Origin: Paenibacillus swuensis | GTDB lineage: Bacteria; Bacillota; Bacilli; Paenibacillales; DY6 | NCBI RefSeq assembly: GCF_001644605.1 | Contig: NZ_CP011388.1 | Coordinates: forward strand, 4,011,501 to 4,075,500 | Direction of reading: 5' to 3' | Length of the DNA stretch: 64,000 nucleotides | Shown here: piece by piece, positions 43,144 through 48,120 of the stretch | Layout of the letters: every line of letters starts with the position of its first letter | Position numbering within the stretch: the first letter of the stretch is position 1 | The notes under the pieces: model-generated | What the model saw: only the letters and a program-made list of their open reading frames with translations | The model's database searches: none | What the model was told of the DNA's origin: nothing | Made by a program: the position numbers and the translations under genes

Positions 43144-44775
43144 TTAGACAGATGGAGTGATCTCAGGTTCTTGCTGTGCATTCTTCTTCTCATTCTTACG
43201 GTCTGTCAACTTGATATGACCGAGGAACGGTGTAATCAGAACGCCAAGGATGACAAAGATCAAACCGTAAATAAACACATCCTGCAAAGCCGTCACCAAA
43301 GAGGATTTCACAATCGGCACAACTTGTTCCGTGAAGACGGGAGGCAAAGTTTTCAATACATTAGGGTCTAACAGAGATGAGTATAGCGCTTGTGGATTGG
43401 TTTCAACCATTTCCTTAAACGGTGCGACGGCTTGAGCATTATCAGCAGGCATTGTATCCAGTACAGGGACCAAACGGTCATGCAACAAGTGGGTCGACTT
43501 CGAATTCATAATCGCGCCGAGAATCGTCATTCCGAACGTCCCGCCGATCTGACGGAAAAATTGGGATGAGGATGTTACTACGCCTAATTGTGATTTAGGG
43601 AAGCTTTCCTGCAATGCCAGGGTGAGAATGGGCATAACCAATCCCATACCTAAACCCAATACGACCATGAAGGAAGAAGCGGTTAATTTCGTAGTGTTCA
43701 CATCAAGTGTAGTCAACAGCCCAAATCCACATGCCATGATAATCATACCGATCGCGATTTGACGGCGTACGCCAAGCTTCTGAACCAGTTGCCCTCCCAA
43801 GATGCTGGCTACAATCATGGTAATCATCAGCGGCGTCATGACCGTGCCTGACTCGGTGGCGCTGACGCCTACAATCCACTGCATGAACAGAGGAACGAAC
43901 ATAATCGCGCCGAACATCCCTACTGCCATCAGGAAGCCGACACTGTTGAGTAACGTAAACGTCTTGTTCTTGAATAATTTAACCGGAAGAATCGGCTCAT
44001 CCACTTTGGATTCAATTCGGATAAAGGCAAACAGACTGACGAACGCCAAGGCAAACATGCCGATGATCTGCCAAGAACCCCAAGCATAATCAACACCGCC
44101 AAGCGAGAGAGCCATCAACAAGCTGACTACCCCGACAATCATCGTGAACATACCCGCATAGTCAAACTTAACAGGACCCGTTGCTTTGAACGATTTAAGT
44201 CCTCCCGCGATAAAGAACATGGCAAGTACGCCTACTGGGAGATTAATATAGAACACCCATCGCCAATTCAGCGAATCCACGATCCAACCGCCTACTTGGG
44301 GTCCGATTACGGATGAAAGACCGTAGATGGCTCCGAATATACCTTGCCATTTGGCACGCTCTTTACCTGTGAACATATCACCAATGATAATCATAGCCAT
44401 CGGCATCATTACACCGCCGCCGATACCTTGAATGGCGCGGAACCAAATTAACTGCGTCATATCCTGAGCGAGACCGCATAAAGCCGACGCGACAATAAAG
44501 ATCGTCAAGCCTGTAAGATATACGGTTTTCCTGCCTATTAAATCCGCAAGCTTCCCCGCAATGGGCACTACCGCCGTCGAAGAAAGCATGTATGCCGTCG
44601 TTAGCCATGTCATCATGTTCAGGCCGCCGAACTCCCTCACAATAACCGGCATAGCCGTACCTACAATCGTACCGTCTAAAGCTGCAAATAACATGGCAAT
44701 AATTAAGCCAGCCATCAGCATCCCTCTGCGTTCGATCATCGGATTGTCATTCATTAAAGCTTCTGTACCTTTCAT
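43144..44775 (-). CDS. DHA2-family multidrug MFS transporter (14 TM)
   Basis: 543-residue drug:proton antiporter of the EmrB/QacA group. Motif A-like GKLADLIGRKTVYL (about residues 74-87), motif C-like GPQVGGWIVD, and about 14 hydrophobic segments match the family. A long extracytoplasmic loop (about 430-480) precedes the last segment. The cytoplasmic C-terminus is Lys/Asn/Glu-rich. ATG at 44775 overlaps the stop of the MarR gene by 4 bases (ATGA), with AAAGGAGAA upstream, so it is translationally coupled to its likely regulator. Confidence 0.92.
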   Translation of the reverse strand: MKGTEALMNDNPMIERRGMLMAGLIIAMLFAALDGTIVGTAMPVIVREFGGLNMMTWLTTAYMLSSTAVVPIAGKLADLIGRKTVYLTGLTIFIVASALCGLAQDMTQLIWFRAIQGIGGGVMMPMAMIIIGDMFTGKERAKWQGIFGAIYGLSSVIGPQVGGWIVDSLNWRWVFYINLPVGVLAMFFIAGGLKSFKATGPVKFDYAGMFTMIVGVVSLLMALSLGGVDYAWGSWQIIGMFALAFVSLFAFIRIESKVDEPILPVKLFKNKTFTLLNSVGFLMAVGMFGAIMFVPLFMQWIVGVSATESGTVMTPLMITMIVASILGGQLVQKLGVRRQIAIGMIIMACGFGLLTTLDVNTTKLTASSFMVVLGLGMGLVMPILTLALQESFPKSQLGVVTSSSQFFRQIGGTFGMTILGAIMNSKSTHLLHDRLVPVLDTMPADNAQAVAPFKEMVETNPQALYSSLLDPNVLKTLPPVFTEQVVPIVKSSLVTALQDVFIYGLIFVILGVLITPFLGHIKLTDRKNEKKNAQQEPEITPSV

Positions 44776-45305
44776 TGTGTGAATTCTCCTTTATTATCTT
44801 TGATATGTTGTTTCTTATCCGTGACGATACACGAACCGTTACCGTCAGCCTGTTGTGAAGTGGCTGCCTGAACTAATTTCTCAAAGGTTTGAATAAAAGC
44901 TTCCTTTTCCCCTTCTTGCAGAACGGATAATAATTTCTCGATCGCGTCTGTGCGAATTTCATCCAATTTCGCTAATGCGAAATGCCCTTTATACGTTAAT
45001 TCCACAAGGATGGCTCTTCGATCGGTTGGATCCTGCATCCGCTTCACAAATCCGTGATTTTCGAGTCGGTCAACCACAACGGTGATGGCGCTGGGCTTGA
45101 CCTCCATCCATTCGGCCAGCTTGGTCAACCGACAGGTGCCTCTGTGCATTAAAAATTTCAGAATATAGAATTGATTGCTGGTAATACCAAGTTCCGATTG
45201 TTTCACAAGGTCTGGCCCGATTCTGCGTACAGTTGTGAAAAGTGCCATCTGAAATCGATCTGTATCTGATTTATGTTCCCCTTCATGAGATTTATCCTTA
45301 TGCAC
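44772..45305 (-). CDS. MarR-family regulator of the MFS exporter
   Basis: 177-residue winged-helix regulator. The DNA-binding core (about 40-125) has ITSNQFYILKFL, LAEWMEVKPSAITVVVDRLE and the wing RMQDPTDRRAILVELT, all MarR hallmarks. The C-terminal 30 residues are a polar extension. Starts at GTG 45305 with GAGGGGG upstream. The gene lies behind a consensus promoter overlapped by an inverted repeat, fitting autorepression and control of the downstream exporter. Confidence 0.92.
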   Translation of the reverse strand: MHKDKSHEGEHKSDTDRFQMALFTTVRRIGPDLVKQSELGITSNQFYILKFLMHRGTCRLTKLAEWMEVKPSAITVVVDRLENHGFVKRMQDPTDRRAILVELTYKGHFALAKLDEIRTDAIEKLLSVLQEGEKEAFIQTFEKLVQAATSQQADGNGSCIVTDKKQHIKDNKGEFTQ

Positions 45306-45503: not shown

Positions 45504-46421
45504 TTAGGCCGATTCTTCATTAAGAGCTTCAGGTAACAGCGTTCGGCTTTGGCGTCCGTCCACACTAACCGGCACATCACCCGCAACGGTAACTCTTCGT
45601 ACTACACGGTGTTGATCGCCATAGTCATTAATAGCGTAGTGCTGCGTTGCCCGGTTATCCCAGATTACAACATCGCCAGGGGTCCAGCGCCATCGAACCG
45701 TGTTTTCCAGTCTTGTGACATGGCTCTGCAACACTTGAAACAGATGCGCAGAGTCACTGGATGACAAACCCGTAATGCGTTTGACGAAGTGGCCGAGTAA
45801 CAATGATTTCTCGCCTGTTTCGGGATGTATCCGCACGACAGGATGCTCCGTTTCATAGATCGTTGACGTAAATACTTTCTTGTATTGCTTATATTCATCG
45901 TGTGATTTGCCCCGGTAAGCTGAAGCATAATCATAGTCATTCGAATGGACCGCCCACAGCTTATCGGCCAATTCCTTAAGCTCCGGTGACAGATCCTCGT
46001 AGGCAGCGGCGGTGTTTGCCCATACCGTATCTCCTCCCGCTTCTGGAATCGTAACACCTCTTAAAATAGAGGCCTGCGGGTACGCATCAACAAATGTTAC
46101 ATCCGTGTGCCAGGAATTGGCACGCCCGCCATGAGCCGAGTCCAGCTCCAACACATAGTTCGTACCCTCTTTAATAGGAACTGTCGGATGTGCCACCGGT
46201 CCGCCGAGCAGCTTAGCCAATTCTTCTTGTCCGGCATCATCCAAATGTTCCTGACCTCTGAAGAATATAACTTTGTGTTTAAATAACAGCTGACGGATTT
46301 CCTCAACTATATTCTGTTCCAAGTTACCGGATAAGGTAATTCCCTGAATGATTGCCCCAATCCGTCCTGCCACCGGTATAACCTCTAAACCCTGTGTTGT
46401 TGCTTGACTGGTTATGCTCAT
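45504..46421 (-). CDS. TauD/TfdA-family Fe(II)/2-oxoglutarate dioxygenase
   Basis: 305 residues from ATG 46421, which follows AAGGAGG; an earlier in-frame TTG at 46478 reads through leader RNA and is rejected. The 2-His-1-carboxylate iron site shows as WHTDVTF and the distal His in ATQHYAINDYG, with the 2-oxoglutarate-binding Arg in HRVVRRV. Close motifs are FFRGQEHLDDAGQEELAKLLG and TVWANTAAAYEDLSPELKE. TauD relatives release sulfite from taurine or sulfonates, others cleave sulfate esters or herbicides, so the substrate is open. No sulfonate transporter is adjacent. The 5' region contains a promoter followed by a terminator-like hairpin, implying regulated read-through. Confidence 0.88.
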   Translation of the reverse strand: MSITSQATTQGLEVIPVAGRIGAIIQGITLSGNLEQNIVEEIRQLLFKHKVIFFRGQEHLDDAGQEELAKLLGGPVAHPTVPIKEGTNYVLELDSAHGGRANSWHTDVTFVDAYPQASILRGVTIPEAGGDTVWANTAAAYEDLSPELKELADKLWAVHSNDYDYASAYRGKSHDEYKQYKKVFTSTIYETEHPVVRIHPETGEKSLLLGHFVKRITGLSSSDSAHLFQVLQSHVTRLENTVRWRWTPGDVVIWDNRATQHYAINDYGDQHRVVRRVTVAGDVPVSVDGRQSRTLLPEALNEESA

Positions 46422-46483
46422 CTTCCTGTTACCTCCTTGGATAATCCGCACACAGGCGGGAATGGTACCAGTGTCCAATTATT

Positions 46484-46576
46484 TTAAAAATAAAAGGCCG
46501 ACGCACCTGTATTTACGGTGCGGCGGCCTCCACTGGTATGGTGGGCAAAGCAAAGCTCTATTAGTGTATCACTCAA
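46484..46576 (-). CDS. Possible 30-codon leader peptide overlapping an attenuator
   Basis: A TTG-initiated frame of 30 codons runs from 46576 to a TAA at 46484, within the leader of the dioxygenase gene. A modest AGTAGGG site lies 5 bases before the TTG. The frame contains one Cys, a His-His pair and an Arg-Arg pair, ends in TGASAFYF, and translates the entire terminator hairpin and part of its T tract. If translated, the ribosome would open the hairpin. Translation is unproven and the start codon is weak. Confidence 0.35.
   Translation of the reverse strand: MSDTLIELCFAHHTSGGRRTVNTGASAFYF
46495..46529 (-). terminator. Strong hairpin-T tract upstream of the dioxygenase gene (attenuator candidate)
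   Basis: Minus strand GGCCG-x-CGCACC, 9-base loop, GGTGCG-x-CGGCC followed by TTTTATTTTT. It lies downstream of the promoter at 46609-46637 and upstream of the ATG at 46421, so it would stop dioxygenase transcription unless overridden. It could also end selO read-through. Confidence 0.8.
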
Positions 46577-46608
46577 TTATACCCTACTAATCACGTAGGA
46601 ATAATTAT

Positions 46609-46637
46609 ATATTAGTTTACATGTTATTTATTGTCAA
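46609..46637 (-). promoter_or_regulatory. Sigma-A promoter of the dioxygenase leader
   Basis: Minus strand TTGACA (46632-46637), 17-base spacer, TAATAT (46609-46614), starting 8 bases after the selO stop. Predicted leader of about 180 bases before the dioxygenase ATG. Confidence 0.75.
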
Positions 46638-46644
46638 GATGTTC

Positions 46645-48120
46645 TTAAGTTCCGCAATAGGTACGGTAACGCCCTATTGATGTTTGCGGTAATGAGCAGT
46701 ATTTATCCTGATTCACCGAATAATCAAATGGGCTAGCCAAAACCTCGATCAGCTGCTTCATCACACTATAATCTTCCTCTTCCACTGCGGCTTCCAATGC
46801 TTCCTCGACTAGATGGTTACGTGGAATGACAGCAGGATTGCTAACCCTCATTAACTCCCGAGACGATGTAATCGGCTCCTGTTGCCTGCCTAATCTTGCT
46901 TGCCATTGTTCATGCCACTCTTTAAATTCCGAAGTACCGAACATGACCGTCTCCTCCGGATTATCCAGCGATAATGCGCGAAATGTATTCGTGTAATCAG
47001 CACGATGCTTCTCCATGAGCTCCAGCAACTTGTCAATTAACGATTCATCCTGCGGCTCCTCGTTATGTATGCCCAGTTTGGCGCGCATGCCCGCCAGCCA
47101 ATGTGCTTGATATCGTGTACCGAAACCGGCAATCGCATTCTCCGCTAACTTAACAGCTTCATCTTCATCGTCATGCAACAAAGGCAGAAGGGATTCAGCT
47201 AGTCTGGCGAGATTCCAAGCGGCAATCCGCGGCTGATTGCCGTAAGCGTAACGGCCTTGGCTGTCAATTGAACTAAAAACCGTTGCAGGGTTATATTCAT
47301 CCATAAAGGCACAGGGACCATAATCAATCGTCTCACCGCTTATCGTCATGTTATCGGTGTTCATGACACCATGGATAAAACCAACAAGCTGCCATTTCGC
47401 AATGAGCTCTGCCTGACGCTTTATGACTTCTTGTAGCAGTGAAAGATAGCGGTTTCCCTCCTCATAAACGTTGGGATCATGTCTTTGCACAGTATAATCC
47501 GCCAGAGCACGAAGCTCATCCACTGTACCCCAGTTTGCAATGTACTGAAAAGTGCCTACGCGGATATGACTGGCGGCAACCCGGGTCAGAACGGCGCCCG
47601 GCAGGTCTTTTTCGCGAATAACCGTTTGACCCGTCGCCATTACAGCCAAACTCCGGGTTGTAGGAATACCGAGCCCATGCATCGCTTCGCTGATAATGAA
47701 CTCCCGCAACATCGGACCGACTGCCGCACGACCGTCTCCGCCCCGTGAATAAGGTGTTCTCCCCGGGCCCTTCAGCTGAATGTCAACCCGAGATCCCTGC
47801 GGGGTAAGTTGTTCGCCAAGCAGGATAGCCCGTCCATCCCCTAAACGGTTGAAGTGTCCAAACTGGTGACCCGCGTATGCTTGAGCAAGCGGCAGAGCGC
47901 CATCCGGTATTTGATTTCCGACAAGTGATGCCTCGCCATCAGGCGAACGAAGCGATTGAACTTGCAAGCCCAGGGCAGCCGCCAACGATTCATTCAATAT
48001 TATCAGTTTAGGTGAACGTACTGATGTCGGGTTGCACAGGGTGAATAGAGATTGTGGTAACCGCGCATAACTGTTGTCAAAGTTCCATCCTGTCTCCGAA
48101 ATTCCTTTGGTTTCTGTCAT
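46645..48120 (-). CDS. selO: SelO-family protein adenylyltransferase (YdiU)
   Basis: 491-residue pseudokinase-fold enzyme that transfers AMP to Ser/Thr/Tyr residues of target proteins. Family blocks are [68 protein letters not shown] (metal/ATP site Asn-Asp) and [11 protein letters not shown]. The C-terminus ends YCGT, carrying the Cys that replaces selenocysteine in animal SelO. Complete length for the family. ATG at 48120 with GGGGAG upstream. Transcribed toward the dioxygenase gene, but that gene has its own promoter. Confidence 0.94.

Follow-up and report, generated by a model that had tools for sequence, protein, structure and literature searches.

A covarying 21-nt hairpin overlapping the terminator of an alkylsulfatase gene leader in Paenibacillus swuensis: a likely antitermination switch associated with YezD (DUF2292)

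Between selO and a minus-strand dioxygenase gene of Paenibacillus swuensis lies a leader in which a promoter is followed by small stems, a strong hairpin and a T tract, raising the question of why a gene should be preceded by a promoter and then by a signal expected to end transcription before its start codon (ATG at 46421; positions refer to the window, the whole 64,000-nucleotide stretch of DNA analysed). The initial annotation, which offered either an attenuator or riboswitch or a terminator with a second promoter, had placed all of these elements on the minus strand where we also find them (Table 1), and its statement that the leader lacks S-box, T-box, TPP and ykkC consensus features agrees with the absence of any Rfam family from the window, both at the gathering score and by E-value. 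The promoter starts seven bases past the selO stop codon. With 13 promoter-like sites seen against 11.7 expected (6.5 kb), the window promoter taken singly could have arisen by chance; in relatives, the -35 at the equivalent position is exactly TTGACA in 8/11 and TTGACG in two more (10/11 together). The leader folds better than shuffled sequences (z -2.5). A 30-codon TTG frame spanning the leader was also observed by eye and considered as a leader peptide.

Table 1. Coordinates of the leader, the gene that follows it and the upstream neighbour, in window positions.
Feature	Position	Strand	Basis or remark
Promoter TTGACA-17-TAATAT	46609..46637	-	Sequence; TTGACA 46637-46632, TAATAT 46614-46609
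Inverted repeat CCTACGTGATTAGTAGG (CCTAC/GTAGG), close to the start site	46583..46599	-	Sequence
Antiterminator hairpin GCC-CA-CCAU-ACCA-GUGG-A-GGC	46526..46546	-	Covariation, fold energy, covariance model match
Intrinsic terminator stem-loop	46496..46528	-	Minimum free energy -21.2 kcal/mol alone
T tract TTTTATTTTT	46486..46495	-	Sequence
Octamer TACCAGTG	46538-46531	-	Sequence
Octamer CACTGGTA, complement of 46531-46538	46466..46473	-	Not conserved, probably incidental
Ribosome-binding site AAGGAGGT	46431..46438	-	Sequence
AtsK-type alkylsulfatase gene, Fe(II)/2-oxoglutarate dioxygenase of the TauD family, 305 aa	45504..46421	-	PF02668, E 8.4e-59
selO, upstream neighbour outside the conserved unit	46645..48120	-	PF02696

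The downstream gene belongs to the PF02668 family, as its annotation as TauD-like implied, but is not TauD proper: its best structural match in the PDB is AtsK (1oih, E 2.4e-131, vs 8.9e-54 for E. coli TauD, 1gqw), and its score of 251 bits against the NCBIfam taurine dioxygenase equivalog lies below the cut-off of 313. A role in sulfate-ester scavenging is likely. Relatives were gathered via homologues of the dioxygenase protein, and their upstream regions were then compared. The genes upstream of the relatives' atsK were found to represent families other than selO in six cases, including nitroreductase, MFS and sulfatase genes, and to lack a Pfam match in a seventh. Since the leader accompanies atsK homologues that lie behind genes other than selO, it can be assigned to the dioxygenase. 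Downstream of this gene, a MarR regulator and a DHA2/EmrB efflux pump (43144-45305, minus strand) possess their own strong promoter-like site (TTGACA-17-TATGAT, 45406-45378) and are separated from the dioxygenase by a terminator at 45482-45461.

Conservation in relatives, proposed at the outset as a check, was found: the same leader precedes atsK homologues, other genera included, with its order of TTGACA, -10, AT-rich box, CCAG-NNNN-CTGG and terminator kept in Paenibacillus, Metabacillus, Bacillus and Alicyclobacillus. The terminator, which opens with AGGCC or similar, directly follows CCAG-NNNN-CTGG, and the triples flanking this stem also pair (GCC/GGC, GCT/AGC, GUC/GAC, GUU/AAC, UCC/GGA). 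Together they form a hairpin of 21 nt whose internal loop is 2x1 and whose consensus is 5'-GYY-NA-(4 bp)-ACMA-(4 bp)-A-RRC-3'. This antiterminator hairpin is the element that the initial annotation overlooked; the CCAC/GTGG stem reported there proved to be a shifted reading of the conserved CCAU/GUGG plus GCC/GGC. Among the first 11 sequences, 97.4% of cells were paired, with double changes at 5/7 pairs. In a set of 100 sequences, chosen by a covariance model (R1) whose structure was without the outer three pairs, pairing reached 96.8%, all seven pairs covaried through double changes, and 0/500 shuffles attained the observed score, while slid versions of the pairing reached at most about 50%. 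The evidence for covariation comes from this set and a further set of 56 sequences, and pairing stood at 97.7% once divergent variants were added. In 82/82 distinct hairpins, an unpaired A stands opposite the internal loop and the second base of that loop is also A. The window copy still fits the GYY-NA-4bp-loop-4bp-A-RRC pairing, with one of its pairs G-U and its internal loop reading CA instead of GA; it scores 63.1 bits with R1, which was trained on it, and matches a second model (R2), whose training set also includes it, at E 9.5e-7.

Also identified by eye were compensated stem variants (UCGG/CCGA), missed by R1, directly after yezD in three loci (L300, L301 and L303), as well as an atsK leader with a GUU/AAC antiterminator triple and no clear adjacent terminator (L072:3893-3960). 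Two octamers that had been suggested to bracket the strong hairpin are indeed present as perfect complements, an outcome seen in about 0.7% of shuffles, but the bracket was absent from ten relatives and was rejected.

Since the last three bases of the hairpin also start the terminator stem (GGC at 46526-46528, common to the antiterminator 3' end and the start of the terminator 5' arm), the two structures exclude each other. Their energies are unequal, at -6.1 kcal/mol for the window antiterminator vs -21.2 kcal/mol for the terminator, and forcing the antiterminator in the whole leader gives a state 8.8 kcal/mol worse than the terminated one. For a transcript that reaches only to 46522, too short to form the terminator, folding predicts the antiterminator. 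Because the hairpin is too weak alone, a stabilising factor is needed, and the anatomy is that of a switch predicted to terminate unless the first hairpin is held.

The distribution of the hairpin was surveyed with two covariance models: R1, built before YezD was considered, and R2, which incorporates the antiterminator structure and was trained on 56 sequences. With R1, matches were found in 228/300 genomes of the order at a loose threshold, chance matches included, and in 47/300 genomes of the class at E 1e-6; with R2, the hairpin was detected in 103/300 Bacilli genomes. As a negative control, 0/42 proteobacterial genomes with AtsK homologues gave a match, and 6/6 Firmicutes controls did. 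No Rfam family was found at gathering score in the window, nor at the hairpins of 20 sampled member loci. The P. swuensis genome carries the hairpin about nine times: convincing matches precede genes for a sulfatase-like protein, an NtaA/DmoA monooxygenase, a LysR regulator, the sulfate-binding protein Sbp, an SsuD-like monooxygenase, SsuA, an ABC ATPase and an epimerase-like protein. In other Bacilli, the genes that follow include cysH, cysK, ssuE-type FMN reductases, metN, sbp, ssuA/B/D and atsK, along with a CysP-like PHO4 permease and sulfonate transporters. Apparently, the hairpin defines a widespread antiterminator family before sulfur-scavenging genes that is absent from Rfam and undescribed, and the RNA switch itself is well supported.

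Several variations on this arrangement were observed. Tandem hairpin-terminators, in two copies, precede cysK-like genes in three loci (L214, L215 and L270), as if to sharpen control. Copies with GCGG/CCGC or similar stems occur before nitrogenase FeMo-cofactor family (PF02579) genes in Paenibacillales (L200, L216 and L244), possibly linking sulfur supply to nif expression. In one genome with no detected YezD, a perfect UCC/GGA hairpin variant lies before a small XRE-type HTH gene (L209).

A candidate for the stabilising factor emerged from several loci in which the reading frame that stops immediately ahead of the hairpin codes for YezD (PF10055, DUF2292). PF10055 and the SsuA family were searched in the same 300 Bacilli genomes as the hairpin, and PF10055 was found in 40% of them, with B. 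subtilis among the carriers. By R1, PF10055 was present in 43/47 genomes with the hairpin vs 77/253 others (p 1.5e-15), by R2 in 98/103 vs 22/197 (p 3e-50), and by genus (R2) in 48/50 vs 10/69 (p 9e-21), p values that are to be read as comparisons of related, not phylogenetically independent, genomes. The R1 co-occurrence is quoted beside that of R2 because some R2 training sequences came from YezD loci (about six of the 56, and none of those used for R1). Within the SsuA-family-positive genomes, the hairpin was detected in 77/90 with YezD vs 1/50 without, hence general possession of sulfonate genes fails to explain the link. Moreover, 45 yezD genes in 43 genomes are followed, on the same strand and after 3-143 nt, by a hairpin. 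Exceptions under R2 comprised 22 YezD genomes without a detected hairpin and five hairpin genomes without a detected YezD. In P. swuensis, yezD is the third gene of a hairpin-sbp-hydrolase-yezD operon (PF10055 match C1:3966373-3966483, E 4.2e-15). This sbp-yezD operon (L284:2317-4480 and C1:3966316-3966513) lies outside the window and is followed by a two-component system. Upstream of yezD, a SAM riboswitch was found in eight loci, corresponding to seven distinct places.

YezD proteins are roughly 50-75 aa long, with residues G25, Q38, E43 and R46 invariant. The AlphaFold model comprises one helix and a beta hairpin (pLDDT 78.5, pTM 0.48), for which a Foldseek search returned nothing below E 3.8 and no match to a known RNA-binding fold; a PDB profile search gave only short matches to designed or repeat proteins and chance matches. 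In two studies of B. subtilis, yezD is listed as of unknown function (PMC6385201, PMC10714963), and a literature search that excluded most subscription journals, and so leaves novelty unproven, found no paper on DUF2292 function. From its co-occurrence and gene order, we strongly infer that YezD would be the binder of the hairpin. Another protein (for example CymR/CysK or an unrecognised RNA-binding protein) could instead bind a genuine antiterminator, with YezD a co-inherited sulfur protein. This would suit the position of yezD, which by location is a sulfur gene and hence a possible bystander, as well as the lack of a recognised RNA-binding fold in its model; however, the dependence of the hairpin on YezD among SsuA-positive genomes and the adjacency of the two in 43 genomes, as is often seen for genes of antitermination trans-factors, make such a binder unlikely.

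Initiation may also be controlled. A 24-bp motif, about ATCATAGTAAACNNATAGGAATTA, was identified just upstream of the hairpins of many relatives, and resembles the CymR site. The window inverted repeat occupies the matching place but was not among the 70 best-scoring motif sites; first annotated as an RNA stem, this CCTAC/GTAGG repeat looks more like a DNA operator close to the start site, possibly one for a CymR/Rrf2-type sulfur repressor. Initiation control by a CymR-like repressor would be consistent with a report that lists ssuB among the putative targets of CymR in B. cereus (PMC3519770).

Taken together, we consider it probable that the leader is a switch by which protein-dependent antitermination controls a sulfur-starvation regulon, with YezD stabilising the antiterminator. 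A sigma-A promoter, probably repressed by a CymR-like factor when cysteine is plentiful, would give rise to a leader RNA whose default fold is the terminator, so that transcription stops. During transcription the 21-nt hairpin would form first, occupying the first bases of the terminator 5' arm; where it is held, the terminator stem would lose its base beside the U tract, allowing polymerase to read into the gene. YezD is the most likely holding factor; it is probably synthesised when sulfur is limiting, and its operon often begins with a SAM riboswitch or with this same hairpin. YezD binding, read-through as the sign of its effect, and sulfur limitation as the trigger are what we infer from comparison of the loci. 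Somewhat less firmly, we hold it likely that DUF2292/YezD constitutes a new class of RNA-binding antitermination proteins, which would act through the 21-nt 2x1-loop hairpin on a sulfur-starvation regulon of Bacilli that includes its own operon.

Direct binding of a sulfur metabolite by the hairpin or leader, as a very small riboswitch, appears improbable: the conserved unpaired bases (NA, A and the ACMA loop) and the sulfur regulon would be in keeping with it, but the conserved part is a single 21-nt hairpin in which no junction or pseudoknot was seen, its distance from the start site varies, and it tracks a protein family. Of the initial proposal we retain the attenuator acting on the downstream gene and its tie to sulfur, and judge a small-ligand riboswitch less likely than a protein-dependent antiterminator given the size of the element and its association with a protein. 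A still fainter prospect is that YezD or another factor uses the hairpin to promote termination, or to control translation or RNA stability, rather than for antitermination. Although the sequence by itself would allow either sign of effect, the hairpin excludes the terminator base, the default fold is already termination, and yezD is in many loci the first gene ahead of the hairpin. In several of these it stands under a SAM riboswitch; riboswitches of this class are on at low SAM, and the arrangement fits activation. Finally, an ordinary selO terminator with atsK served by its own downstream promoter is hardly credible, for while a terminator is expected after selO and weak promoters could be present, the leader is kept with atsK homologues whose upstream gene is not selO, the antiterminator covaries, and the promoter scan found no site of at least 9/12 between terminator and gene, where the second promoter of the initial annotation would lie.

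The favoured antitermination switch shares features with several known systems. According to van der Ploeg and colleagues (2001), the B. subtilis ssu operon is reportedly controlled at both initiation and termination, a two-step control of Bacillus sulfonate genes like that proposed here, in a species carrying PF10055. The CymR (Rrf2) regulon is likewise comparable in that a CymR-like box precedes many hairpins, but CymR acts on DNA at initiation and would be a second layer, not the antiterminator. S-box (SAM-I) elements of Bacilli also precede sulfur genes and work through terminators, and some lie upstream of yezD in an operon that carries the hairpin as well; unlike these, the window leader has no SAM aptamer by Rfam, and the hairpin is far smaller. 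For B. methanolicus, (SAM)-(PyrR) leaders have been described at sulfur genes (PMC4342826); these probably represent cross-hits within the S-box. As in ANTAR systems (NasR/AmiR/EutV), a terminator-overlapping hairpin is common to many leaders of one nutrient regulon, but ANTAR leaders possess P1 and P2 with hexanucleotide loops bearing A1 and G4, whereas here a single conserved hairpin has a 4-5 nt loop with the consensus ACMA, and the candidate protein is not ANTAR. Lastly, in the RAT of LicT/SacY/BglG, a short asymmetric-loop hairpin shares sequence with the 5' arm of a terminator and prevails only with the help of a small RNA-binding protein (PMC3369936). The present hairpin resembles it in terminator overlap and asymmetric internal loop, with a protein that would be needed here too, but differs in RNA sequence, in having one 2x1 internal loop in place of two asymmetric ones, in a candidate protein, YezD, without a PRD domain, and in its association with sulfur instead of sugars.

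If true, these findings would provide a function for DUF2292, a widespread domain of unknown function whose carriers include B. subtilis, would add a family of antiterminator RNAs that Rfam lacks, and would reveal sulfur control at another level in addition to CymR, S-box and T-box. Given that yezD is present in B. subtilis 168, the idea is directly testable there.
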